A stretch of DNA of 54,757 nucleotides from Candidatus Melainabacteria bacterium. GTDB taxonomy: Bacteria; Cyanobacteriota; Vampirovibrionia; Obscuribacterales; Obscuribacteraceae. This document shows positions 19,753-31,448 of this stretch, piece by piece. Under the pieces are notes generated by a model that was given only the letters and a program-made list of their open reading frames with translations, was not told the origin of the DNA and searched no databases. Position 1 is the first letter of the stretch, and the number at the start of each line of letters is the position of its first letter. The translations under genes were made by a program, and so were the position numbers. The stretch covers positions 1-54,757 of the forward strand of contig PLXC01000159.1 of NCBI GenBank assembly GCA_003151275.1, in the 5' to 3' direction.

Positions 19753-19977
19753 TTTAGCGATTTTTCCTCGGTTCATACGTAGATTTCCCACTATTTCTGT
19801 GGAATTTTCGTGTTTTCCGGTTTTCAAAGCGTGCACAGAAGGGTATTGTTTGAGTATCGAGCACTTGTGCTCTCAGATCCCTGCTTCAGCGTAACCAAAT
19901 TCATCAGCCGACTGACTCATCATCAGTTTGTCGAAAGCTTGCACAAGAAGTGCAGTCAAATCCCCAAGGAGCCTTTT

Positions 19978-21090
19978 ATGAGCGACCGTGAAATTTCCAG
20001 ATTGACTCGTGATCTTCAAACAGGCAATGCGGAAGATGCGTCCAGTGTCATTCGTCATGAGATCCAGGTTAATCCGCAATCCGCCTTGCAAGAGGTGCGT
20101 CAGGCAAACCAACTAGCCGGGCCCAATGCTCGCCTACACGTCGGCCATAAGCAAGACGGAGACATGGCAATCGTCGACCACACGGGCCGTCCTATAGTTC
20201 AGCTAGGTCACTTAGGTCAGCAAAATCTAAATAATCAGAACGGTCGCTACCAAGACCAGTCCTATCTAAACGGTCAGAACGGTCGTCCACAGGACACGTC
20301 CTATCTAAACAACCAGAATGGTCGCTATCAGGACCAATCCTATCTAAATGGTCAGAACGGTCGCTACCAAGACCAATCCTATTTGAATAATCAGAACGGT
20401 CGTCCACAGGACATGTCCTATCTAAACAATCAGAATGGTCGCTACCAAGACCAGTCCTATCTAAACGGTCAGAACGGTCGCTACCAGGACCAATCCTATT
20501 TGAATAATCAGAACGGCCGCTATCAAGACGGTTCCTATTCAAATGGTGGTCAAAGTCAAGTCGTAGGCAGACTGGCTAATGACTTGAGTCGTGGCGACGC
20601 CCGAGATGCTTCAAACGTTTTGAACTATGTTTTGCGTAGTGGAGATGATGCCACCCGAGTTATTCAAGAAGCTAATCGTTGCGCCGATCAACAAGCCGCT
20701 CGCATGGGCTACAGGTCAGCAATGGAGCACATTGGAATCAATAGAAGGGGAGACATCGCCATAGTTGACCAATACGGACAACCAATTGAACGTGCAGGCA
20801 ACATCAACGACAGCCGTCAACAAAACAATAACTCTAGCTATTATCAGGATCGGCAACAGAGTAACTATTACGACAACAGAAGCACCTACGCTCCCCAACA
20901 AAACGGCAGTAACTATTACGGCGATCAATATCAACAACAGCAACAACAGCAATGGCAGCAACAACAGCGCTACGGCAATATGAATGGTGGCAACGCTGCA
21001 TTGGGGATCGGAATTGGAGTAGTTAGCGGTTTGCTCCTGTCCAACATTGGCAGAAACAACAACAACAACAATTTCCATCGCCATCGTTAG
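19978..21090 (+). CDS. Repeat protein: two homologous domains flanking a 13-residue tandem array, with Q/N-rich tail
   Basis: 370-residue protein of no recognised family. ATG at 19978 has AAGGAG six bases upstream, so the longer open frame back to 19810 is unlikely to be translated. Residues 1-80 (MSDREISRLTRDLQTGNAED...) and about 190-275 (VVGRLANDLSRGDARDASNV...) are similar to each other. Both contain a GD-AIVD--G-PI motif, so the gene holds an internal duplication. Between them lie eight copies of a 13-residue unit, L-N-N/G-Q-N-G-R-Y/P-Q-D-x-S-Y. After the second domain comes a Q/N/Y-rich stretch with a poly-Gln run, a glycine-rich hydrophobic segment (GIGIGVVSGLLLSNIG), poly-Asn and HRHR. 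There is no signal peptide. It resembles prion-like or adhesive low-complexity proteins; the function is unknown. Confidence 0.75.
   Translation: MSDREISRLTRDLQTGNAEDASSVIRHEIQVNPQSALQEVRQANQLAGPNARLHVGHKQDGDMAIVDHTGRPIVQLGHLGQQNLNNQNGRYQDQSYLNGQNGRPQDTSYLNNQNGRYQDQSYLNGQNGRYQDQSYLNNQNGRPQDMSYLNNQNGRYQDQSYLNGQNGRYQDQSYLNNQNGRYQDGSYSNGGQSQVVGRLANDLSRGDARDASNVLNYVLRSGDDATRVIQEANRCADQQAARMGYRSAMEHIGINRRGDIAIVDQYGQPIERAGNINDSRQQNNNSSYYQDRQQSNYYDNRSTYAPQQNGSNYYGDQYQQQQQQQWQQQQRYGNMNGGNAALGIGIGVVSGLLLSNIGRNNNNNNFHRHR
20227..20538 (+). repeat. 39-base tandem repeat, eight copies, in frame
   Basis: Eight head-to-tail 39-base units encoding 13 residues each, of the form CTAAAYAAYCAGAAYGGTCG and onward. 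Copies alternate in two positions (Asn/Gly at position 3, Tyr/Pro at position 8), giving a higher-order pattern that suggests copying in blocks. The reading frame is kept throughout. Confidence 0.9.
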
Positions 21091-22065: not shown

Positions 22066-23160
22066 ATGATCGAATCGTTCCTTGGAATCTGTCTTGTAAC
22101 TCTGGTTCTCTTCGATGTTTTCCAGACGATCGTCGTGCCGCGTGTTACCCCTCGCTCCTTGCGGATCGCCCCATTTTTAATCGGGGACATTCTTTGGCCG
22201 CCATATCGCAAGCTTACAAAGTGGAAGCCACTCCGAGCATATCAACGTGATCTTTTGGATCTGTTTGCACCCGTTACTTTCGTGACGATAGTACTTACTT
22301 GGCTCATTCTCCTAACCCTCGGGTACGCGCTAATCATCTACAGCTTACGACTCAATGTCACTCCAATTATCAATTCGTTTTTTGAAGCATTCTACTTTGC
22401 CGGATCCTCGGTGCTTACACTCGGCTTTGGCGATGTCGTCGCGTTGGGTGTTCGAGCACGTTTCGTTGTGCTTTCTGCTGCCACCAGCGGATTGATATTT
22501 ATGGCACTTGCCGTGTCATATTTATTTTCTCTGCAAACTTTGGTGCAACAAAGAGAGCAACTTGTAAACACGGTTATCAGTAGAGCAGGCGCTCCCGCAT
22601 CGGGACTAGTTCTCATGCTGCGCTATAAGGAATTGAACATTTTGCCAGCTTTGTACACCAATTTTTTGCAATGGGAATCTTGGATTGCAGGCATTCTGGA
22701 AAGTCATCGAGCATATCCAATGCTCTTATTTTTCCGATCCTCTAATAGCACCGATTCATGGATAAGCGTGGTCGGAGCGATGCTAGACGCCTCATCTTTA
22801 ATAGTCACCACAATCAAAGATGTCTCGCATGGTGAAGCTGAACTCTTCTACTGGTTGGCGTGCAGCACCGTCAAATCAATGTGTAGTTATTTGCGCCTGA
22901 AGGTCGTCGATGGAGAAACACTAACGGTCGAAGAATTCAATGAAGGCATCTCGCTGTTGCGTGACGCAGGCTACTATGTCGCAGACGATGATTTAGCCTG
23001 GAAATTATTCAAAGTTCGTCGCACTGGCTATTTGCCATATCTGCGCGCACTGTCTGACTACTTCTTGCTGCCAAAGCAAACATGGTTGCACGAATTAGCA
23101 ATTAGTCAAATATCGATCAAAGATAGCGTTGAAGATTCCGTATTTCAACCACAAGTTTAG
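22066..23160 (+). CDS. Potassium-channel-like membrane protein (two-TM pore domain)
   Basis: 364-residue membrane protein. A hydrophobic segment at 4-24 and one at about 68-92 precede a pore loop with the selectivity-filter-like motif TLGFGD (118-123) in FAGSSVLTLGFGDVVALG. An inner helix follows at about 130-155. This is the arrangement of small potassium channel pores (Ion_trans_2). The filter reads L-G-F-G, where T-x-G-Y/F-G is typical, so potassium selectivity is probable but unproven. Residues 160-364 form a soluble, mostly helical domain that is not an obvious RCK/TrkA-N domain. The last codons overlap the end of the convergent gene at 23157. Confidence 0.8.
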   Translation: MIESFLGICLVTLVLFDVFQTIVVPRVTPRSLRIAPFLIGDILWPPYRKLTKWKPLRAYQRDLLDLFAPVTFVTIVLTWLILLTLGYALIIYSLRLNVTPIINSFFEAFYFAGSSVLTLGFGDVVALGVRARFVVLSAATSGLIFMALAVSYLFSLQTLVQQREQLVNTVISRAGAPASGLVLMLRYKELNILPALYTNFLQWESWIAGILESHRAYPMLLFFRSSNSTDSWISVVGAMLDASSLIVTTIKDVSHGEAELFYWLACSTVKSMCSYLRLKVVDGETLTVEEFNEGISLLRDAGYYVADDDLAWKLFKVRRTGYLPYLRALSDYFLLPKQTWLHELAISQISIKDSVEDSVFQPQV

Positions 23161-24272
23161 GCAGACCACGCGCTGGAGCGATCTTTCACTCGCCAGATGA
23201 ATCCATCCAAAAGGTAATGTGTCGACTGTGGCAAGGCCAGGAAAGGCACCAGAAGTGCCAGAATGGCAGCATCCCCAACGGACGGCAACATGGCAAATGG
23301 GGCAAATAAATTCAAATGTTCACGCCAGACAAGACCGTCCCAAAGACCTTCTTCTAAGTAAGCGAGCACTGCAAGGAAGGCAAAGAATATCAGAACATTG
23401 GAAATTAATACTTTTTTCCAAGCACCATTACTTACAAGCTGTTTTGTGCTTTCACCGTTCTTCTGATGGTGATATAGCCAGATTAGAGCTATGTATGGAA
23501 TGCCGTGACTAACGACATTGGTAATTGTAAAAGCCATGTCCGAATTCAAAGTTATGATTCCAGTCCACCAGCTTAGAGCCGTTCCGACAATTAGCAAGTT
23601 GCGCGGAACGTTGAAAAATCGCGTTGTTTTTGCTAGCGCAATCTCCTTGACGCCATACGAGACTGCCACTAAAACGTAACCCCACAGTGCGATTTGAGTA
23701 ATGACCGCAGGCACAGATTCGATGAAGTCACCAGCGACAAACCATGAAAAATTCCGAGGCATATTCGTGTGCCAAAACAGCATTGGATAAATTGTCGCCA
23801 TGTACACCGCAGCACAATCTAACCATTTAAACCGCTTCAGCGCGGGTGGATCTTTTCTTGAATAGAGAATTACAAATCCAAATTGCTGACGAATAAAGTG
23901 GAAGACCGCTAGATAAGCAAGAGCGCGCCAAAAGAAAAGTCCATCAAGCGAATAAAGGAGACTGCCGCCGATCCAAGCGATAGCAGGTATAGCCAGCAAA
24001 ACCGACCTGTTCTTTTCGAAGGCTTCGGGGTTAAGATATGTACGAAAAAGAGTAGCGTACACGTGAGCAACATCTATCAGCAGAACGAAGCAAACCCACA
24101 CCCACAAAGGCACGTTCTGACTTGCCGCCATCTGATTCCGGAATAGCAGAACGAAGGCAGAAGATATAAAAGCAGGCGAAATTATCCACAAACAGTCCCA
24201 TCCGGCCGAGGAAAGCCAAGCCTGTGATGAGGTCTTTGTGGCTATTGCAACAGTTGGATGACTAGTCTGCAT
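23157..24272 (-). CDS. Multipass membrane protein of unknown function
   Basis: 371 residues with about nine to ten hydrophobic segments spread over the whole length, starting with WDCLWIISPAFISSAFVLLF near residues 26-45. Recognisable charged or aromatic patches are HFIRQQFGFVILYSRKD and SHGIPYIALIWLYHHQKNG, which could line a substrate or cofactor site. I do not recognise the family. It is the last gene of the minus-strand polyamine-type cluster, 38 bases after the FAD oxidase. Its TAA overlaps the TAG of the convergent channel gene. Membership in the cluster is inferred from spacing and strand. Confidence 0.75.
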   Translation of the reverse strand: MQTSHPTVAIATKTSSQAWLSSAGWDCLWIISPAFISSAFVLLFRNQMAASQNVPLWVWVCFVLLIDVAHVYATLFRTYLNPEAFEKNRSVLLAIPAIAWIGGSLLYSLDGLFFWRALAYLAVFHFIRQQFGFVILYSRKDPPALKRFKWLDCAAVYMATIYPMLFWHTNMPRNFSWFVAGDFIESVPAVITQIALWGYVLVAVSYGVKEIALAKTTRFFNVPRNLLIVGTALSWWTGIITLNSDMAFTITNVVSHGIPYIALIWLYHHQKNGESTKQLVSNGAWKKVLISNVLIFFAFLAVLAYLEEGLWDGLVWREHLNLFAPFAMLPSVGDAAILALLVPFLALPQSTHYLLDGFIWRVKDRSSAWSA

Positions 24273-24310
24273 ACACTTCCATTATCATGTACTTGGCGCC
24301 AGGGACCTAT

Positions 24311-25960
24311 TCACAACATTTGCGGTTTCCCTTGCTGGATGCTTGCGAGGATTACTTTTGCGGCTTCAACACCGTGGTATTGAGCCTCTTCAAAATTGGA
24401 CATGCCGCTCATGTCGGAGTGCGCAAATATTATATTCCCGTCGAGCTCCTTCATTTGTCTGCGTGTATCACCCCAGATGAAGCCGACTGCAGGGCGAATC
24501 ATGCCATGCCCCCAAGGCCACAAATCCATGGAAATAATCTCTTCTGCAATTGATGGATGCATTTTTTGTAGATCGTTAACTATGATTTGAGACCATTGTT
24601 CTGGCGATGAACTGTAAAGGTTCTCCCTGGCAGCCTTAGGCTCACTTTGGGAGAGTGGATAATAATAGGTAATGACGTTCGGTTTTTGCCTCGTAGTTAT
24701 GTCCTGGTGGTTTGCCATCACATAACCGAGAGAATCACTGTAGTAACTTACATTATCCCAAGCAGGAGCGAGCCCGCGCGCATCAGGCAGGCTCCTCAAG
24801 CTGATGTTCGCCACCATCCACGGTGCGTAGCTTAAATCCTTGATCGTTGTAGCTGACGTTTGAGGGACAACTACATGTGCGGCCACAAATCTTGGCGCAG
24901 CAAATATGACGAACTGTGATTCAAAAGCCTTGTATTTCTTGGTTTGTGAGTTCATACAGGTGGTAATGACTTTATCTCCATCCTGTCTGACCTCAGTCAC
25001 TAGTGAGTGCACCTGGATTTGATCTTTCAAAGGCTGTTTCAACTTTTCTACCAGAAAACCATTGCCTTGTGGCCAGGTAATCACCGAATTCGGCTCTGAA
25101 TTAGCCGCCAGCCCGCGGCGACCGGCAAAGTAATGAATGCCAGCCCAAGCGGATACGTTTTGGAGCGTGGAGCCGTAGTCGTCTCGACAGCAATAGTTCA
25201 CGTACCAGAGTATTGGCTTTGATTGGAAGTGATTATCTTTCATCCATTGATCCATCGAAATGGAGTCTAGGGAAGTGTATTTGGAATCACAAGAGCTAAG
25301 ATCTAGGGGGATGGCGAAAGCAAGTTTGCCATCACGGCCGGTGGCGTTTCGAAAATCCACCATCGTCTTGAAAAATCGAGCCACGTCTTCGTTCTCATTC
25401 TTTTGCAAGCCTCGTTTTGGAACTAACCCATCATGAAAGGACCCGTCCTTAAACAAGCGCTCCTGTGGCTCGTGACACAGCATCAATTCGTCGTAGATAG
25501 CCAGCCCATCTTTGTTATGACCCTGAATGATGCCTAGCTCTTGAAATAGTTCACGAACGTACTCCGATTCCGGATTAGCAATAGGAACATAGTGCGCCCC
25601 CCAGGGATAGGCGCCGAATTCGTTTTTACCCGAAGATGAATTGCCACCCACATCCTTTTCCAAATCCAACAGAACAAAATCAGTTACACCGTGCTTCTTC
25701 AGCCACCACGCTGCGGACAAGCCTGCCATGCCGCCCCCAACAATCGTTATTTTCGTCGCAACTGAAGGCACATTTCCTTTCGGTCCAAGAGCTTTAGGAT
25801 CTCGCAAAAGGTGTCCAATCTCTCTTGAAGGTCCCAGCATGCGACAAGGGAATTGTGGTGAGGGATGAGTCCACTCGATATAAGTCTTGCCAACCAGCGC
25901 CGCTACGCCACAGCCGGCCAACCCTTTCAGGAATGTGGCCCGACTAATGGGCGTCGACAT
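24311..25960 (-). CDS. Exported FAD-dependent amine oxidase-like protein
   Basis: 549 residues. The N-terminus SRATFLKGLAGCGVAALVG looks like a Tat-type leader with a single Arg, and also contains a lipobox-like LAGC (Cys17). Export is likely; the route is uncertain. The FAD-binding GGGMAGLSAAWWLKKHG (75-91) and a following acidic residue in LLDLEKDVGGNS fit the flavin amine oxidase / phytoene desaturase superfamily. The C-terminal FAD-contact region is NIIFAHSDMSGMSNFEEA. The start overlaps the 3' end of the aminopropyltransferase gene by 17 bases, so the two are tightly coupled. Given that neighbour, a polyamine or an aminopropylated product is a reasonable guess for the substrate, but the sequence alone does not show it. 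Confidence 0.82.
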   Translation of the reverse strand: MSTPISRATFLKGLAGCGVAALVGKTYIEWTHPSPQFPCRMLGPSREIGHLLRDPKALGPKGNVPSVATKITIVGGGMAGLSAAWWLKKHGVTDFVLLDLEKDVGGNSSSGKNEFGAYPWGAHYVPIANPESEYVRELFQELGIIQGHNKDGLAIYDELMLCHEPQERLFKDGSFHDGLVPKRGLQKNENEDVARFFKTMVDFRNATGRDGKLAFAIPLDLSSCDSKYTSLDSISMDQWMKDNHFQSKPILWYVNYCCRDDYGSTLQNVSAWAGIHYFAGRRGLAANSEPNSVITWPQGNGFLVEKLKQPLKDQIQVHSLVTEVRQDGDKVITTCMNSQTKKYKAFESQFVIFAAPRFVAAHVVVPQTSATTIKDLSYAPWMVANISLRSLPDARGLAPAWDNVSYYSDSLGYVMANHQDITTRQKPNVITYYYPLSQSEPKAARENLYSSSPEQWSQIIVNDLQKMHPSIAEEIISMDLWPWGHGMIRPAVGFIWGDTRRQMKELDGNIIFAHSDMSGMSNFEEAQYHGVEAAKVILASIQQGKPQML

Positions 25961-27452
25961 ATTCGCTCCACTCTGACTCGAATAGATGCACCAGAGATTG
26001 ATTGTTCAATTTATTGATCGTGCTAACGGTAGGCAGCATATCCTTCGCGAAACAAAGCATTTGTGTAACAGTGGCATCCGACACGTAGCGCAGCCCGGGT
26101 GGATAGCTCTTCTCATCTGCAGGTTTAAAAGGCTCCAACGAGCCGATCACATAACCCCAGTCACCGAAAGACGGTACATAAGCGTGATATGGTGTAGTCT
26201 GGAAACCAACTGATGCCAAAGTCTTGTCGACACACCAGAATGAATTCTTTGCGTAGTAAGGCGACGTGCTTTGCACAACGACCATTCCATTTGGCTTCAG
26301 AGTTTTCTTCAAAGCTTTGTAGAAGGTGTCGCTGTACAATTTTCCAAGCGAATAATTGCTCGGGTCCGGAAAATCTACAATTGCAAGATCAAACTTCTGG
26401 GGTGTCGTTCGCAACCAAACAAACGCATCATTGATTATCACCGCAACTTTCGGATTATTTAGAGAGTTCTCGTTCAGCCTGGTAAGCAACACCTGCTCCT
26501 TGAACAGATTGATCATCTGCTTATCCAAATCGACGAGAGTGATCGATCGCACTGAAGGATATTTGAGAAGTTCGCGCACTGCAAGCCCGTCGCCACCACC
26601 CAGGACGAGGATGTCTTGCGGATCTTGCATGCTTGCCATGGCTGGATGCACAAGAGCCTCATGATAGCGATACTCATCGCGTGAGCTAAATTGCAAATTG
26701 CCATTTAAGAACAAACGCAGATCTTTGGTATTACCTGTAATGACAATGCGCTGATAAGGCGTTGTAGTTGAATAAATAATAGGATCGGGATAAGTCGATG
26801 CTTCAGCTATACCCGTGAGCTTATCAGCAAAAGCAAAACCGCAAACTAGCAGGAAGACCAACAGATAGGCAGTTGTCTTCAAAGAATTCTTCCAAGGCAA
26901 TTGCTCACGGAATAAGTGAATCGTCCAGATTGCGACGCCCAAATTGAACAGTCCAAACAGAAAGGATGTTCGAATCAAACCCAGATAGGGAACCAATACC
27001 AAAGGGAAGAGCAAAGATGCAAGAAGCGCACCGACATAATCAAAAGTGAAGACTTGGGATACCAGATCTTTGAAGTCCAATCGTTCCTTGAGAATTCTCA
27101 TCAACAACGGGATTTCCAGCCCGATCAAAATACCAATGATCGAAACAAGGCTGTACAGCAAGATGCGAAAGTTGTCGATGTGTTCGAACAATAAGAACAA
27201 GAGCGACGCGGACGAACCACCAACCAATCCTATTAAAAGTTCGACCTGAACGAAAGTAAAAGCGATGTTTTTTTCTATGTATCTAGAAAGAAATGAGCCG
27301 ATGCCCATCGAAAACAAATAAACACCAATCACCGTTGAGAACTGCGTGATCGAGTCTCCAAGCAAATAACTCGCGATTGTGCCGGCAATTAGTTCGTAAA
27401 TCAATCCGCACGTCGAAATGACAAATGCGGTAATCAGAAGCGCATAGGTCAA
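25944..27452 (-). CDS. speE: Membrane-fused polyamine aminopropyltransferase (spermidine synthase-like)
   Basis: 502 residues. The first 210 hold about seven hydrophobic segments (from MTYALLITAFVISTCGLIYE onward), resembling the membrane domain found in MFS-like spermidine synthase fusions. The C-terminal 280 residues are an aminopropyltransferase. GGGDG (285-289) binds decarboxylated SAM, LVDLDKQM supplies the following acidic residue, NDAFVWL forms the next strand, and VDFPDP (359-364) matches the catalytic D-x-x-D-P motif. The family transfers an aminopropyl group from decarboxylated SAM to an amine. Start is TTG at 27452, seven bases after the DUF350 gene. The acceptor here could be putrescine, another amine, or a membrane-bound target. 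Confidence 0.9.
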   Translation of the reverse strand: MTYALLITAFVISTCGLIYELIAGTIASYLLGDSITQFSTVIGVYLFSMGIGSFLSRYIEKNIAFTFVQVELLIGLVGGSSASLLFLLFEHIDNFRILLYSLVSIIGILIGLEIPLLMRILKERLDFKDLVSQVFTFDYVGALLASLLFPLVLVPYLGLIRTSFLFGLFNLGVAIWTIHLFREQLPWKNSLKTTAYLLVFLLVCGFAFADKLTGIAEASTYPDPIIYSTTTPYQRIVITGNTKDLRLFLNGNLQFSSRDEYRYHEALVHPAMASMQDPQDILVLGGGDGLAVRELLKYPSVRSITLVDLDKQMINLFKEQVLLTRLNENSLNNPKVAVIINDAFVWLRTTPQKFDLAIVDFPDPSNYSLGKLYSDTFYKALKKTLKPNGMVVVQSTSPYYAKNSFWCVDKTLASVGFQTTPYHAYVPSFGDWGYVIGSLEPFKPADEKSYPPGLRYVSDATVTQMLCFAKDMLPTVSTINKLNNQSLVHLFESEWSEYVDAH

Positions 27453-27458
27453 GCTAGA

Positions 27459-27677
27459 TTACCCATGAATCGCCGCAGCGATAATGCTACCGACTGCCAT
27501 CACCATCGCGGCAAGCACTATTGAGAGAGGCAGATTTTTTTCTACTACGATGTCCTTCCACATATCGCCGGGCGTGAGCCAGTCAAAGACTACCGTCGAA
27601 AAACAGAGGATACCAATGCCCAGAAGCGAATAAACGACCGCAGCACCGATGTAGTGTAAAGATAAAACTTGTTCCAC
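27459..27677 (-). CDS. DUF350 (YjfL-like) small membrane protein
   Basis: 72 residues with two hydrophobic segments, about 9-30 and 49-70. The central WLTPGDMWKDIVVEKNLPLS loop followed by an alanine/glycine-rich second helix is typical of DUF350. GTG start with a very strong AGGAGGAG five bases upstream. DUF350 proteins recur beside polyamine, SPFH or PspA-type genes in many bacteria, including E. coli yjfL; that context is known while the biochemical role is not. It lies between a 46-residue membrane protein and the aminopropyltransferase. Confidence 0.85.
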   Translation of the reverse strand: MEQVLSLHYIGAAVVYSLLGIGILCFSTVVFDWLTPGDMWKDIVVEKNLPLSIVLAAMVMAVGSIIAAAIHG

Positions 27678-27692
27678 GAACTCTCCTCCTGA

Positions 27693-27833
27693 TTACTTGT
27701 GATAATGCCCGCCCGGGCCTGTAGGTCTTGCTGAACCGACACCAAATGGATCTACAACTTTCCAACCAGTCATTCCTGCATACACAAAGAGCGCGCAGAG
27801 AAGGATTCCGACAATGAGATAGAAGCGTACCAT
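27693..27833 (-). CDS. 46-residue single-span membrane protein
   Basis: Short open frame starting at ATG 27833, with GAGG eleven bases upstream, and ending 15 bases before the DUF350 GTG. Residues 4-20 (FYLIVGILLCALFVYAG) form one membrane span. The tail reads GWKVVDPFGVGS and ends in a Gly/Pro/His-rich GPGGHYHK. It fills the gap between two cluster genes exactly and keeps operon spacing, which is the best evidence that it is real. No function is known to me. The C-terminal histidines could bind metal. Confidence 0.72.
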   Translation of the reverse strand: MVRFYLIVGILLCALFVYAGMTGWKVVDPFGVGSARPTGPGGHYHK

Positions 27834-27846
27834 GCTAGTTTATACC

Positions 27847-29220
27847 TCAACTGTCTGCTGTTATGTAGGGACTGTAATCGCTGTTTGCCCATCGAGCCAC
27901 TTCATCACGTCGCATTAGCGCCCAGCACCACAGGGGCACTATCGAGAGGAAGAACGCAAACCACCAATAATTCGCATAGGATGGAACATCACGTCTGACA
28001 CTTAGAGTAAATTGTTTTTGACTGACGTCCTTAAAGTCACCGCTTTCGGTATCAATGTTGAGGTAATACTGACCTCCTGGAACAGCAGATATTTCTAGAT
28101 CTTTGCTTGAGCTACCTTCGCTCCAATAGCCGTCGCTGTCGGTGCCGGAGTAAAACTCGGACGTCATTTCGAATGGATAGCTGGTGCCGTCCGTGTTATT
28201 GACTAACTCGCCAGATACATAAAACCAACTATTGTTGACTGGAGCTTGCAGATTGATTAGTACGTTGGCTGAATTTTTTTCCATATTGAAAACAGGAACT
28301 GTTATGTCGTTGACCTTGGTGTTCGGAACAAAATTGCCAATATATTGAGTCGCCATCTCGTTTTTCGCAGTTGCAACAAAGAAATATTGAGTGCATGTTA
28401 GGAACACCAAAAACAGCACCCATATCACCCAAATCTTTTTCCAATTTGCAGTCGCCGCAGATGGCTCAATTGCACCGATCACAACAGATTGCGGAAGCAT
28501 TCCCTTTACTTTGAATGCTTCTTCGATCTCCTTCGGGTCAATGTGCTCTGCTAGGCTCCAGACGACCTCAGTGTCATCCTTTTCCATGGATAACATTTCA
28601 GGTGGCTCGATATAGTCCGCCATGAGAACTTCACTGCCGACAGCAACTCTCCAATAGAATTCGCCAATTACAAAGTCGACGCGTGCCTTACCCTTGTTAT
28701 AAAGACGAAATTTTTTCTCGCCTTTATATTCCAAAGATGCGAATTCGAAACTCTTGAAGCCCATGGTCGTTTGTTTGATTTCAGGCTTTCTCTTAATCGT
28801 GTTGACGAGAGTAAAGTTGCCCTTGTCTTGGGTCAACCATCTATAGCCGTAATAGGGATTGAACAGCAAATATTCCATCCAGTAATATTTGCTGGCAACG
28901 TCCGAGCGCACCATGAAACCAATCACTTCAAAAGTTTTGCCCCGCAGTTTTCCACGCGAGCCCAAAGGGATATTGGGCGTGTAAAGATCAACTTTGCGGA
29001 AGTATTCAGTGAGAATTGTATAGTTGGGGTTAGAAACATCGATGATTGAGCTGCAACTGTCGCAGACGATGGACATCGAAGCGCCCGGATACTTAAGCGT
29101 TATGGAGGCACCACAGCTGGGGCAAGAAAATGTCTTAACGCGCGGCTTAGTAGGCGGCGGCGGATCAGGCACAGCAGACTTATCATCAGGAGGTTGAGGA
29201 TCACCGGGATTACCAGCCAT
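27847..29220 (-). CDS. Zinc-ribbon DUF4178 membrane protein (long)
   Basis: 457 residues. A Pro-rich N-terminus leads into a zinc ribbon with CPSC (33-36) and CDSC (53-56). A DUF4178-like beta-rich domain follows, about 70-210, with GKTFEVIGFMVRSD and YYWMEYLLFNPYYGYRWL. Membrane spans lie near 259-281 and 418-437, enclosing a predicted extracytoplasmic beta-rich region of about 135 residues. It overlaps the end of the shorter DUF4178 gene by 11 bases, so the two are probably translated together. DUF4178 has no established biochemical role. The family assignment rests on the pattern and context, not on a search. Confidence 0.82.
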   Translation of the reverse strand: MAGNPGDPQPPDDKSAVPDPPPPTKPRVKTFSCPSCGASITLKYPGASMSIVCDSCSSIIDVSNPNYTILTEYFRKVDLYTPNIPLGSRGKLRGKTFEVIGFMVRSDVASKYYWMEYLLFNPYYGYRWLTQDKGNFTLVNTIKRKPEIKQTTMGFKSFEFASLEYKGEKKFRLYNKGKARVDFVIGEFYWRVAVGSEVLMADYIEPPEMLSMEKDDTEVVWSLAEHIDPKEIEEAFKVKGMLPQSVVIGAIEPSAATANWKKIWVIWVLFLVFLTCTQYFFVATAKNEMATQYIGNFVPNTKVNDITVPVFNMEKNSANVLINLQAPVNNSWFYVSGELVNNTDGTSYPFEMTSEFYSGTDSDGYWSEGSSSKDLEISAVPGGQYYLNIDTESGDFKDVSQKQFTLSVRRDVPSYANYWWFAFFLSIVPLWCWALMRRDEVARWANSDYSPYITADS

Positions 29221-29839
29221 CGATATGCCTCAAGTTCTTAAACTGGAAATCGTCGAAGTCTTTATACGCACCTAAAAACATGCGCGTCTCGTTTGCTGCA
29301 TACTCAATTGTGGCCATCTCGTCTTCGAAGCCTGTTAGGTCCACGCTTGTAGACTCGCGTCCTTGCACGGCGTTGAACGGCAATTCACCTTCGCTAAAAA
29401 GACATTTCACTGGTCGAAGATCTTCGATCTCGAAAATTCCTTTAGAGCCAAGGTCAACCGTCTTACCGGGGAATAAACTAGCCTTGCTTGGCACCTGAAC
29501 CTCAAAGAACGGGAAGCACAAAGCATAAAAACCTTGTGCCTCTGCGAGCCAACCAACTTTTCCGTCACCGAACATGGTGAACCACTCATTCCAAAATCCG
29601 TCGGCATAACCGACCTTCAATCGGCCAATGACTTCAAATTTTTCATTGGAAAACATTCCGGATGTACCGATTTGGATCGGGGTTAAATCATCCAAAAGGT
29701 CAGCTACAGTGCCAATCTTCTCCAAATCCATATCTTGCCGAACAAGACAGGATTTGCAAAAACTGCAAACAGCATAAACTGATGCTTTTGATTTAAATTC
29801 GACGTTTGCCCCACAAGAGGGACAACTCAGGGTCAACAT
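29210..29839 (-). CDS. Zinc-ribbon DUF4178 protein (short)
   Basis: 209 residues without a membrane span. The zinc ribbon has CPSC (6-9) and CSFC (25-28), plus a further Cys31. The rest is a beta-rich DUF4178-like region with NEKFEVIGRLKVGYADGFWNE and VGWLAEAQGFYAL, paralogous to the start of the next gene. The ATG follows immediately after the TAA of the SPFH gene (TAAATG), and its 3' end overlaps the long DUF4178 gene. It is probably a soluble partner of the membrane-bound paralogue. Confidence 0.82.
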   Translation of the reverse strand: MLTLSCPSCGANVEFKSKASVYAVCSFCKSCLVRQDMDLEKIGTVADLLDDLTPIQIGTSGMFSNEKFEVIGRLKVGYADGFWNEWFTMFGDGKVGWLAEAQGFYALCFPFFEVQVPSKASLFPGKTVDLGSKGIFEIEDLRPVKCLFSEGELPFNAVQGRESTSVDLTGFEDEMATIEYAANETRMFLGAYKDFDDFQFKNLRHIDGW

Positions 29840-30820
29840 TTACGAAATGCTCTTGAGGAGTTCAGCTTTCTTTTTATCGAACTCTTCTTGAGTGAGCACG
29901 CCTTTTGTCACTAACCCATGCAACTTCTCAAGTTTCGCGTAAACATCTTCTTCAGCAGCGCCGCCAGATTGTCCTCCTAACGACTGAGCAATGCTCTGTC
30001 CCATTGCAGCGCCAATACCTAGCCCTACACCAGCTCCAGCGAAGCCGCCGGGGTTGTTTGCTGCCGCGGAAATACTGTCGGCCGCCTGGAAGTTGGCATA
30101 CTTCTTCATGTCGCCAACAAGGTTCATCTGCGATTGCTTGTCCAGGTAAGCTTGCAATTCTTCCGGTAAGGTGACGCTCTGCACAAGGAATGTATTCAAC
30201 TTCAATCCGTATTGCAAAAAAGGCAAGTCAAGTTCAGCTCTCATCAGCTCAGAGAACTTCTGTTGATTGGCGGCTATGTCCAAAAACGCTGTCTCTGCTT
30301 GACCGAGTTTGGTTGCGATTTGCGTGATGATCATCGATCTCAACTGACCATCTAGTTCGCTGGTGGTGTATTCCTCGCGTGTGCCGCTGATTTTTTGATA
30401 AAAGGTAGTTGGCTCTTCAATCTGATATGAAAACGTTCCGAACGCTCTTAAGCGGATCACGCCAAACTCTTTGTCGCGGATGGAAATTGGCGTCTGGGTG
30501 CCCCAGCGCTGATCGATCTGCTCGCGTGTCGAGAAAAAATAAACTTCCGATTTGAAAGGCGACTTAAACGCTTTGTCCCAATTCAAAAGCGTCGTCAGAA
30601 TTGGCAGGTTTTGCGTGGTCAGCGCGTAGCGACCAGGGCTAAAAACGTCGGCGACATTGCCTTCATTCACAAACAAGGCCATCTGCGAGTCTCGAACTGT
30701 AAGTTGCGCTCCAGTTTGGATTTCTTTATCAAGGGTGGGAAACCGGTGAGCGAGTACACCATCTGTGTTTTCGGTCCACTCGATTACTTCGATAAATTGC
30801 TTTTTGAAAATGTCTAACAT
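29840..30820 (-). CDS. SPFH (band 7) domain protein with C-terminal SHOCT domain
   Basis: 326 residues. The N-terminal SPFH domain (about 20-235) is of the soluble virion-core / YdjL-like type, with TLDKEIQTGAQLTVRDSQMA and FNVSPGRYALTT-like sequence (FSPGRYALTTQNLP). A glycine/alanine-rich hydrophobic stretch at 256-284 is followed by a SHOCT helix pair (294-326), LEKLHGLVTKGVLTQEEFDK. ATG has GGGAG six bases upstream. It is the first gene of the minus-strand cluster and divergent from speD. SPFH proteins assemble into membrane-associated rings and recruit partners, so it may organise the following membrane proteins. Confidence 0.88.
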   Translation of the reverse strand: MLDIFKKQFIEVIEWTENTDGVLAHRFPTLDKEIQTGAQLTVRDSQMALFVNEGNVADVFSPGRYALTTQNLPILTTLLNWDKAFKSPFKSEVYFFSTREQIDQRWGTQTPISIRDKEFGVIRLRAFGTFSYQIEEPTTFYQKISGTREEYTTSELDGQLRSMIITQIATKLGQAETAFLDIAANQQKFSELMRAELDLPFLQYGLKLNTFLVQSVTLPEELQAYLDKQSQMNLVGDMKKYANFQAADSISAAANNPGGFAGAGVGLGIGAAMGQSIAQSLGGQSGGAAEEDVYAKLEKLHGLVTKGVLTQEEFDKKKAELLKSIS

Positions 30821-31049
30821 CGCGCACTCCCGTCTAGATTGGAAGGAACAGAACGAACTTGTCTAAACTGTAAATATGATAGACGGTCGAGCGCATCACT
30901 CTAGTTGAAAAGCACAAATTAGTTTAGGTTCGGCTAGCATTTGGAAGAAATAAAAGGCATTTTCGCACCCAACCATGAGATATCAGTATGCTTGGTAGGG
31001 TGAGCAAAAGTGGGGAATCAGATAAGATGAATGCCCAAGGAGACAACAG

Positions 31050-31448
31050 GTGCAAGTAAGTTCGACACCGAAGGTCACGAATTCCAGGCAGCATAGCTTC
31101 TCTGGGCGCCACATGCTGGCTAGTTACTTTGAGTGCGAGCAGTCCGCGATTACGGATGCCGATCATTGTCTGACAGCCCTCAAAGAGGCTGCCGCCTCCA
31201 GTGGCGTCACGGTCGTATCTGAGAACGTTCATCGTTTCCCGAACGGGGCGATTACCGCAATCTTACTCCTGGCAGAAAGTCATGCCAGCATCCACACTTA
31301 TCCTGAACATCGCTCCTGCTTCATCGACTTCTTCACCTGCGGTGCAGGCGACATTGAAACCTTTGATTCAGTTTTAAAAGCGGCACTCAAACCGACACAT
31401 GCGGAGATAAGCATCATCGAGCGCGGCGGCAAGAAAAACTCTAAGTAG
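31050..31448 (+). CDS. speD: S-adenosylmethionine decarboxylase proenzyme
   Basis: 132-residue prokaryotic-type SpeD. It self-cleaves between Glu76 and Ser77 in LAESHASIHTYPE, turning Ser77 into the pyruvoyl group. It then decarboxylates SAM to the aminopropyl donor. His82 and Cys97 stand at +5 and +20 from the serine, as in characterised enzymes. The start is GTG with AAGGAG seven bases upstream. It is divergent from the SPFH-DUF4178-aminopropyltransferase run, separated by 229 bases that must hold both promoters. It supplies exactly the cosubstrate that the aminopropyltransferase needs. Confidence 0.95.
   Translation: MQVSSTPKVTNSRQHSFSGRHMLASYFECEQSAITDADHCLTALKEAAASSGVTVVSENVHRFPNGAITAILLLAESHASIHTYPEHRSCFIDFFTCGAGDIETFDSVLKAALKPTHAEISIIERGGKKNSK

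Follow-up and report, generated by a model that had tools for sequence, protein, structure and literature searches.

Fusions of seven-transmembrane (7TM) or MFS-type domains to a spermidine synthase are reportedly encoded, in work by Li et al. 2019, in operons with an S-adenosylmethionine (AdoMet) decarboxylase and DUF350. A role outside polyamine synthesis is said to have been proposed for these operons, and a 7TM/MFS-spermidine synthase fusion reportedly did not complement an Escherichia coli speE mutant. We analyzed an operon in a 54,757-nucleotide stretch of DNA from a Candidatus Melainabacteria bacterium (contig PLXC01000159.1, hereafter "the window"). The fusion family, SpeD (the AdoMet decarboxylase) and DUF350 are common to it and, reportedly, to the operons of Li et al.; an SPFH protein, two DUF4178 proteins, an oxidase and a multipass protein of 371 amino acids (aa), which we call MP371, are added in the window. 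The operon belongs to the known family of 7TM-spermidine-synthase fusions with SpeD and DUF350, and the branch with the oxidase and MP371 is a variant of it. Our main result concerns a small protein of this operon, whose C-terminal lysine we propose as a candidate acceptor for the fusion.

Another close published description covers several operon types that, in the passages covered here, name in differing sets band-7/SHOCT proteins, DUF350, DUF4178, a 7TM-synthase, an AdoMet decarboxylase, a polyamine oxidase and lipoproteins (Ravi 2024, PMC11237479). These named components are the points of similarity to the window. An MP371-like protein, however, is absent from those passages, and the window lacks PspA in its operon: no PspA match to Pfam was found among the nine operon proteins, to which this search was limited. 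The words "lysine" and "glycine" have no occurrences in the main text of that paper, so the tail motif presented below is not described there. The bac cluster of Pseudomonas aeruginosa was considered as a further lead and dropped, as the parts of the report used here give it as lacking a spermidine synthase in or around the cluster (PMC10948618).

Tail proteins ending in lysine

Between the long DUF4178 gene and the DUF350 gene, the window encodes a 46-aa protein with a single transmembrane (TM) segment (27693..27833, minus strand) that ends ...GPGGHYHK, with the terminal lysine codon at 27696-27698 and the preceding histidine codon at 27699-27701. This open reading frame (ORF) matches no Pfam family above the cut-off, and a database search with it returned six matches, one of them itself, that all end in HYHK. 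A small one-TM protein stands in the same place in other loci and ends exactly in (F/Y)(Y/F)HK, HYHK, THK and similar, with a linker ahead of this end that varies among loci. In the window, 15 bp separate the stop codon of the 46-aa gene from the start that follows, so that an overlapping gene does not account for the ending.

Two collections of loci were used to study this ending (handles beginning with L denote loci and those with G genomes). The seed set consists of 70 loci with MP371 in a species-level genome collection, which by record titles are 8 Obscuribacterales-type, 59 Bacteroidota and 3 Proteobacteria; their neighboring genes were scored by hidden Markov models of the window proteins. 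The second collection comes from phylum samples of 249 Pseudomonadota genomes (around G020), 198 Bacteroidota genomes (around G010) and 194 genomes from the phylum of G001, a Melainabacteria metagenome-assembled genome (MAG), which we take to be Cyanobacteriota. The fusion exceeds its family cut-off in 28, 12 and 18 of these genomes, respectively, giving 58 fusion loci. Statements about whole genomes are drawn from the genomes of relatives.

With all rules taken together, 46 of the 58 fusion loci carry a membrane-anchored tail protein ending in lysine, so that a conserved C-terminal lysine, as a candidate acceptor, is encoded with the transferase. The initial annotation had suggested that an amine is made, attached or oxidized at a membrane domain; this suggestion is supported and can be narrowed to one particular candidate residue. 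A role in defense, which the initial annotation also raised, is not indicated by any of our results, although no search aimed at defense genes was made. The other 12 loci are L040, L103, L109, L118, L121, L155, L156, L162, L164, L169, L170 and L174. The carriers of the lysine differ: they are small one-TM proteins, lipoproteins (frames of 240-380 aa) or the C-terminus of a DUF4178 protein. In oxidase-less loci of the Bacteroidota and Pseudomonadota samples, the lipoprotein-like carriers end in GGFGK, GSFGK, FGGK or RGK, and a lipobox is present in all four that were looked at (L108, L123, L154 and L159); the carrier in L120 has a TM segment and no lipobox. TM carriers of 59-100 aa in oxidase-less loci end in GPGAGK, GLSGGK, GLRGGK or GRIK, whereas L101, L102, L104 and L105 have their tail at the DUF4178 C-terminus, beyond the last TM segment, with GGSHK or GGGHK as its ending. 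The 46-aa ORF represents a widespread component of these operons, probably the key one.

The ending can be counted by simple composition rules, which were set after the motif had been noticed. Among frames in the 58 fusion loci that are upstream, on the same strand, have a hydrophobic segment and contain at least 10 Gly, Ser or Arg in their last 20 residues, 32 of 33 end in lysine, and none of the 3 antisense frames do. A looser rule (at least 8 such residues of the last 20) gives 35/40 and 0/8 antisense, and a stricter rule restricted to Gly and Ser gives 26/30 and 0/8. In the 70 seed loci, the Gly/Ser/Arg rule performs poorly (lysine in 15/40 and 8/11; antisense 0/18 and 0/4), because the short tails there contain less Gly and, in 12 cases, the rule is satisfied by a DUF4178 frame with a terminal Ser. 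For the seed loci, a count of His-Lys (HK) endings is therefore the proper test. Such an ending was found in 74 of the 80 rows of oxidase loci (66 by rule and 8 by inspection of frames), or 72 of 78 distinct loci, since L132 and L133 repeat L007 and L008. The six misses are L013, L017, L056 and L063, whose contigs start at the fusion, and also L040 and L103. In fusion loci without the oxidase, the rule was satisfied in 1 of 43, by a spurious frame that is not a tail protein (L158). As background, 130 of 39,580 frames (0.33%) end in HK, the tails included.

The penultimate histidine follows the oxidase. All 13 tails from oxidase loci have it, versus 1 of 33 elsewhere (Fisher 1.4e-10), the single case being L110, which lies in the oxidase clade of the fusion tree (see below). 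It is important to consider that the oxidase loci form one clade, so that the link between His-Lys and the oxidase comes close to a single event in evolution, and the observations are less independent than the p-value implies. We are close to certain that the C-terminal lysine motif is real.

A contrasting ending occurs in another system linked to DUF350. Lipoproteins of the DUF1190 family are described as partners of an ATP-grasp enzyme resembling glutathionylspermidine synthetase, in operons that also hold DUF350, within the passages used of Ravi 2024 (PMC11237479). In 28 DUF1190 loci of the Pseudomonadota sample (L184-L211), 19 DUF1190 tails end in Gly-Gly, 6 in Ser and 3, the weakest matches, in other residues; none end in Lys. 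The DUF1190 (YgiB/YjfM-type) system thus shares with the operons studied here the DUF350 partner, the link to polyamines and a Gly/Ser-rich lipoprotein tail, but Gly-Gly is the usual ending of its tails and Lys does not occur there. A Gly-Gly end, a candidate ligation site, would suit amide ligation to its carboxylate by the reported ATP-grasp partner, and a terminal lysine would suit an aminopropyltransferase, which alkylates an amine. The hypusine modification of eIF5A places a polyamine fragment on a protein lysine. Deoxyhypusine/hypusine is therefore alike in idea, but enzyme, donor and site differ, and the present system is not a member of that family. Neither protein aminopropylation nor the lysine tail was the subject of any paper found in our search of the open-access literature, with subscription papers, Li 2019 included, outside its scope; within the literature searched, the acceptor proposal is new.

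Recurrence of the gene block

The closest relative of the window operon is L001, from a MAG of Melainabacteria, whose MP371 is 94% identical to that of the window. Of the 70 seed loci, 67 contain the fusion, 69 the oxidase and 58 SpeD, all on the same strand except for two SpeDs of Obscuribacterales. Since these loci were found by way of MP371, such frequencies mean that the grouping is not due to chance. In Bacteroidota, speD lies upstream of its partner genes, and in the three proteobacterial loci it lies downstream of them; in Obscuribacterales its position varies, and it is nearby in 3 of 8. The SPFH gene is present in all 8 Obscuribacterales loci, in 1 of 3 proteobacterial loci (in the remaining two, the contig starts at the fusion) and in none of the 59 Bacteroidota loci. 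No cluster of unlabeled genes has a fixed place across the 70 loci, among the 14 largest clusters. In some Hymenobacter loci (L015, L024, L042 and others), several kb separate the oxidase from MP371 or the fusion from the oxidase.

Three strong matches in the Bacteroidota sample, all from outside the seed set (L150-L152), carry SpeD-DUF4178-DUF350-fusion-oxidase-MP371. The block of oxidase, MP371 and fusion recurs in Obscuribacterales, Bacteroidota and Proteobacteria, and is not peculiar to the window genome. The neighborhood does recur in bacteria, as initially proposed. However, the accompanying idea that the oxidase and the extra multipass protein are a local extension of the usual set must be given up, as they form a recurring subset.

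Within the phylum samples (in the order given above), 1, 4 and 1 genomes have an MP371 match stronger than 1e-100; all six are genomes with the fusion, and three are the genomes around which the samples were centered. When weaker, distant matches are included, the tallies are 4, 15 and 6. The oxidase is near the fusion in 15 of the 58 fusion loci. On a quick tree of the fusion (73 rows), the presence of the oxidase maps as one change, compared with a shuffled mean of 23. Support for the exact oxidase branch is 41, and that for the clade including L110 is 98; L110 has no visible oxidase, and its contig starts 0.8 kb upstream of the fusion. The presence of MP371 maps as four changes, within the oxidase clade. 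L120 forms a long branch at a great distance from this clade. MP371 also has a wide range of distant relatives among multipass proteins encoded on their own (L136-L149); four of them were aligned and keep four histidines and an HY..D motif, and these four have no Pfam family above the cut-off.

The operon proteins and their proposed chemistry

ORF calling together with Pfam and NCBIfam searches confirmed all nine genes as real and agreed with the identities first assigned to the recognized families. The tight packing originally described also holds: eight minus-strand genes run head to tail, with gaps of at most 38 bp and overlaps of up to 17 bp, and speD (31050..31448, plus strand) diverges from them, starting 229 bp from the SPFH gene with a GTG codon behind AAGGAG. 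The SPFH/Band_7_1 protein (29840..30820, minus strand, 326 aa) has a C-terminal SHOCT domain (PF13421, E-value 1.4e-75; PF09851, 7.9e-7). It is followed on the same strand by the short DUF4178 protein (29210..29839, 209 aa; PF13785, 2.1e-7), whose sequence has N-terminal CxxC pairs, and by the long one (27847..29220, 457 aa; PF13785, 1e-21). The long protein has a zinc-ribbon-like N-terminus, DUF4178 and, in family-averaged hydropathy, a TM segment at ~266-284, an acidic ectodomain and a TM segment at ~416-434. Beyond the tail gene, also on the minus strand, DUF350 (27459..27677, 72 aa; PF03994, 3.2e-11) is a half-length member with two TM segments by hydropathy. MP371 (23157..24272, minus strand) has neither a Pfam nor an NCBIfam family; its invariant residues are D67, H70, H125, R128, Q129, Q130, H168, H256, E307, E308, D312, H352 and D356.

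An Ion_trans_2 potassium-channel-like protein (22066-23160, plus strand) overlaps the last operon gene by 4 bp at its end, tail to tail; we rejected it as a member because it adjoins only 1 of the 70 seed operons, the near-identical L001. Beyond this gene, 19810-21090 (plus strand) encodes a protein that combines tandem repeats such as NGQNGRYQDQSYLN with an end rich in Gln and Asn.

SpeD (PF02675, 1.7e-27) keeps the Ser, His and Cys of self-processing in the motif ESHASIHTYPE...FTCG, as expected of class 1b, so its assigned role in supplying decarboxylated AdoMet (dcSAM) is retained. In the SpeD of Thermotoga maritima, the self-processing residues are S63, H68 and C83, according to the parts used of PMC10407285. 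The position equivalent to C83 is Ser in all 52 scored operon SpeDs of Bacteroidota (within L009-L070) and Cys in all 6 SpeDs from elsewhere, the window included; the Bacteroidota enzymes may thus be slower or altered decarboxylases. The possibility that the window SpeD is an ornithine or arginine decarboxylase (compare PMC10407285, in the same parts) was considered and is not supported, because the processing motif and the proline of TYPE are kept, although the diagnostic value of this proline is inferred. A divergent extra SpeD (ESHISIHSFPE...FSC) was observed in the Obscuribacterales genomes G002 and G006, on a contig apart from both the speE-speD pair and the operon (L128, 8.0 kb; L134, 1.0 kb).

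The fusion (25944..27452, minus strand, 502 aa; PF01564, 1.3e-42) scores 674 bits against NF002956 (PRK03612; E-value 1.1e-202; curated cut-off 472) over residues 3-498, and both SpeD and DUF350 adjoin it. The expected membrane-tethered aminopropyltransferase, which has seven TM peaks, is thus supported. Alignment to solved aminopropyltransferases and conservation place GGGDG at 285-289, D360-x-x-D363 and Q394; the GGGDG and DxxD motifs of aminopropyltransferases are kept.

The oxidase (24311..25960, minus strand, 549 aa; Pfam match 3.8e-14) is predicted to have the classical FAD polyamine/monoamine oxidase fold, and its best matches include putrescine oxidase and spermidine dehydrogenase. Relative to putrescine oxidase and the spermidine dehydrogenase SpdH, however, identity is ~15%, and other flavin oxidases are within 2-4 Z units. 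Classical FAD polyamine and monoamine oxidases have an active-site lysine near flavin N5; the oxidase family has no lysine in columns conserved in at least 90% of its 50 rows. The N-terminus of the window oxidase (ISRATFLK, with one Arg) resembles a twin-arginine translocation (Tat) signal, and a Tat-like RR motif is present in the oxidase of 51 of 68 loci. The enzyme is thus probably exported, as had been surmised.

Our best explanation, to which we give an even chance, is that the fusion aminopropylates the C-terminal lysine of the tail and that the oxidase then acts on the product; the identity of this lysine as the acceptor is itself evenly balanced. SpeD would make dcSAM, and the fusion would move the aminopropyl group to the epsilon-amine of the terminal lysine rather than to putrescine, the acceptor in the window being the 46-aa protein ending in HYHK. 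The product would be an aminopropyl-lysine, similar to spermidine, that terminates a flexible tail on the outer side of the membrane. In the clade of the window, the exported FAD oxidase would then oxidize the aminopropyl group, and the His-rich MP371 may perform a further step. SPFH, DUF4178 and DUF350 would scaffold the site, and the passage of dcSAM across the membrane may fall to DUF350 or the 7TM domain. Of this scheme, the recurrent genes, the lysine tail, its His-Lys form in oxidase loci, the preserved active-site motifs and the distribution of charges are observed, whereas the acceptor, the side of the membrane, the sequence of steps and the part played by MP371 are inferred.

Sidedness and competing explanations

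The outer location is predicted from charge distribution. Family-averaged hydropathy places seven TM segments ahead of the synthase domain of the fusion (in large MFS-synthase fusions, 12-14 segments were counted, which does not decide their topology). Lys plus Arg average 2.45, 2.86 and 3.10 in loops 2, 4 and 6, versus 0.43, 0.41 and 0.45 in loops 1, 3 and 5, and the even loops exceed the odd ones in each of the 58 fusions. An inside N-terminus followed by seven spans would put the synthase domain outside the cell. The lipoprotein carriers are predicted to be outside by their signal, and the single-TM tails lean the same way: of 57 tails, 44 have a greater net charge ahead of the TM segment than behind it, 8 have the same charge on both sides and 5 have less ahead of it. 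DUF4178 carriers have one C-terminal TM segment in L101, L102 and L104; for L105 and L110 two segments are predicted, and for L153 three, so the side of the last three is not fixed. Taken together, the charge rule, the lipoprotein signal and the oxidase signal, if it works, predict the transferase domain, the tail and the oxidase on one face. A difficult consequence is that dcSAM must cross the membrane; as a speculation, it could be carried by the 7TM domain or DUF350. Provided that the lysine is the acceptor, we consider the arguments for and against extracytoplasmic chemistry to be about equal.

It is rather unlikely, in our judgment, that the same chemistry occurs in the cytoplasm, with the tail modified before export and only the oxidase outside. 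The cytosolic origin of dcSAM and C407, which is conserved in fusions of the seed set and would be unusual in an exposed domain, fit such an arrangement, but all 58 fusions follow the opposite charge rule.

The membrane domain of the fusion has polar residues conserved in at least 93% of sequences (E20, D33, Q37, E71, R96, E113, R119, K128 and D138), beyond what an anchor needs, and genes for membrane scaffolds adjoin the fusion. These observations could be explained if the 7TM domain presents an amino-lipid, e.g., phosphatidylethanolamine, whose head group is aminopropylated by the fusion and oxidized outside, the tail being only a subunit. However, this would leave unexplained both the exact C-terminal lysine on differing carriers and the His-Lys of oxidase loci, and we regard it as unlikely.

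Ordinary or variant polyamine synthesis, in which the fusion makes spermidine, thermospermine or a similar compound that the oxidase converts, would account for the retained catalytic residues. The best-scoring solved relatives of the fusion are a polyamine aminopropyltransferase and thermospermine synthase, with spermidine synthases close behind, and the oxidase fold matches fit as well. There is also a precedent, described in the parts used of PMC11531321, in an engineered pair of thermospermine synthase and polyamine oxidase that makes norspermidine in E. coli. On the other hand, the oxidase appears to be exported, and other routes to triamines are common. We searched 26 genomes with the block for PF01564, PF02675, TIGR01047 (nspC) and PF01916, the last representing the deoxyhypusine-synthase homologue SpeY that makes homospermidine (PMC10407285, in the parts used). 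All 15 Bacteroidota genomes have one route: nspC is above the cut-off in 3 and PF01916 is present in 12, never both and never neither, when weaker nspC-like matches are excluded. Of the 8 Obscuribacterales genomes, 6 have PF01916, and a separate speE-speD pair is present in both of the others and in one of the six (L129-L131). No triamine route was found in the 3 proteobacterial genomes with the four families searched. The fusion is the sole spermidine-synthase match above 100 bits in 13 of the 15 Bacteroidota genomes, G017 and G018 having another. A literature search for polyamine data on Hymenobacter found none.

A triamine route apart from SpeD and the fusion is therefore visible in 23 of the 26 genomes, so that these two proteins look dedicated to a non-polyamine role, and we consider ordinary polyamine synthesis quite unlikely. 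The initial annotation had counted the independent production of polyamines against the system; such independence is indeed largely found in these relatives, but it favors a dedicated role and does not count against the system. It also agrees with the title of Li et al. 2019 and with a remark in Ravi 2024 on aminopropylation of other substrates.

A polyamine-sensing scaffold for envelope stress, with membrane dynamics like those of the phage shock protein system and no defined covalent product, is distinctly improbable: it follows a proposal of Ravi 2024 (PMC11237479), whose passages used here suggest either polyamine monitoring or aminopropylation of other substrates in related operons, and is compatible with the terminal lysine and the oxidase-specific His-Lys, yet it predicts neither, and PspA is not among the nine operon genes.

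Aminopropylation of the tail lysine suggests a wider and more tentative reading, which we think has less than an even chance. A widespread system may put polyamine on the C-terminus of tail proteins outside the cytoplasmic membrane: one branch would use exported dcSAM and the fusion to modify lysine, the DUF1190/ATP-grasp branch would ligate an amine to Gly-Gly, and in the clade of the window the oxidase and the four-histidine MP371 would process His-Lys, e.g., to a cross-linking aldehyde. The substrate of "polyamine-independent" AdoMet decarboxylases and membrane-fused spermidine synthases has been an open question, for which a concrete acceptor is now proposed. If the proposal is true, aminopropyl-lysine at a C-terminus would be a new protein modification at the cell envelope, with a possible use of dcSAM outside the cytoplasm and a common logic for DUF350 operons.

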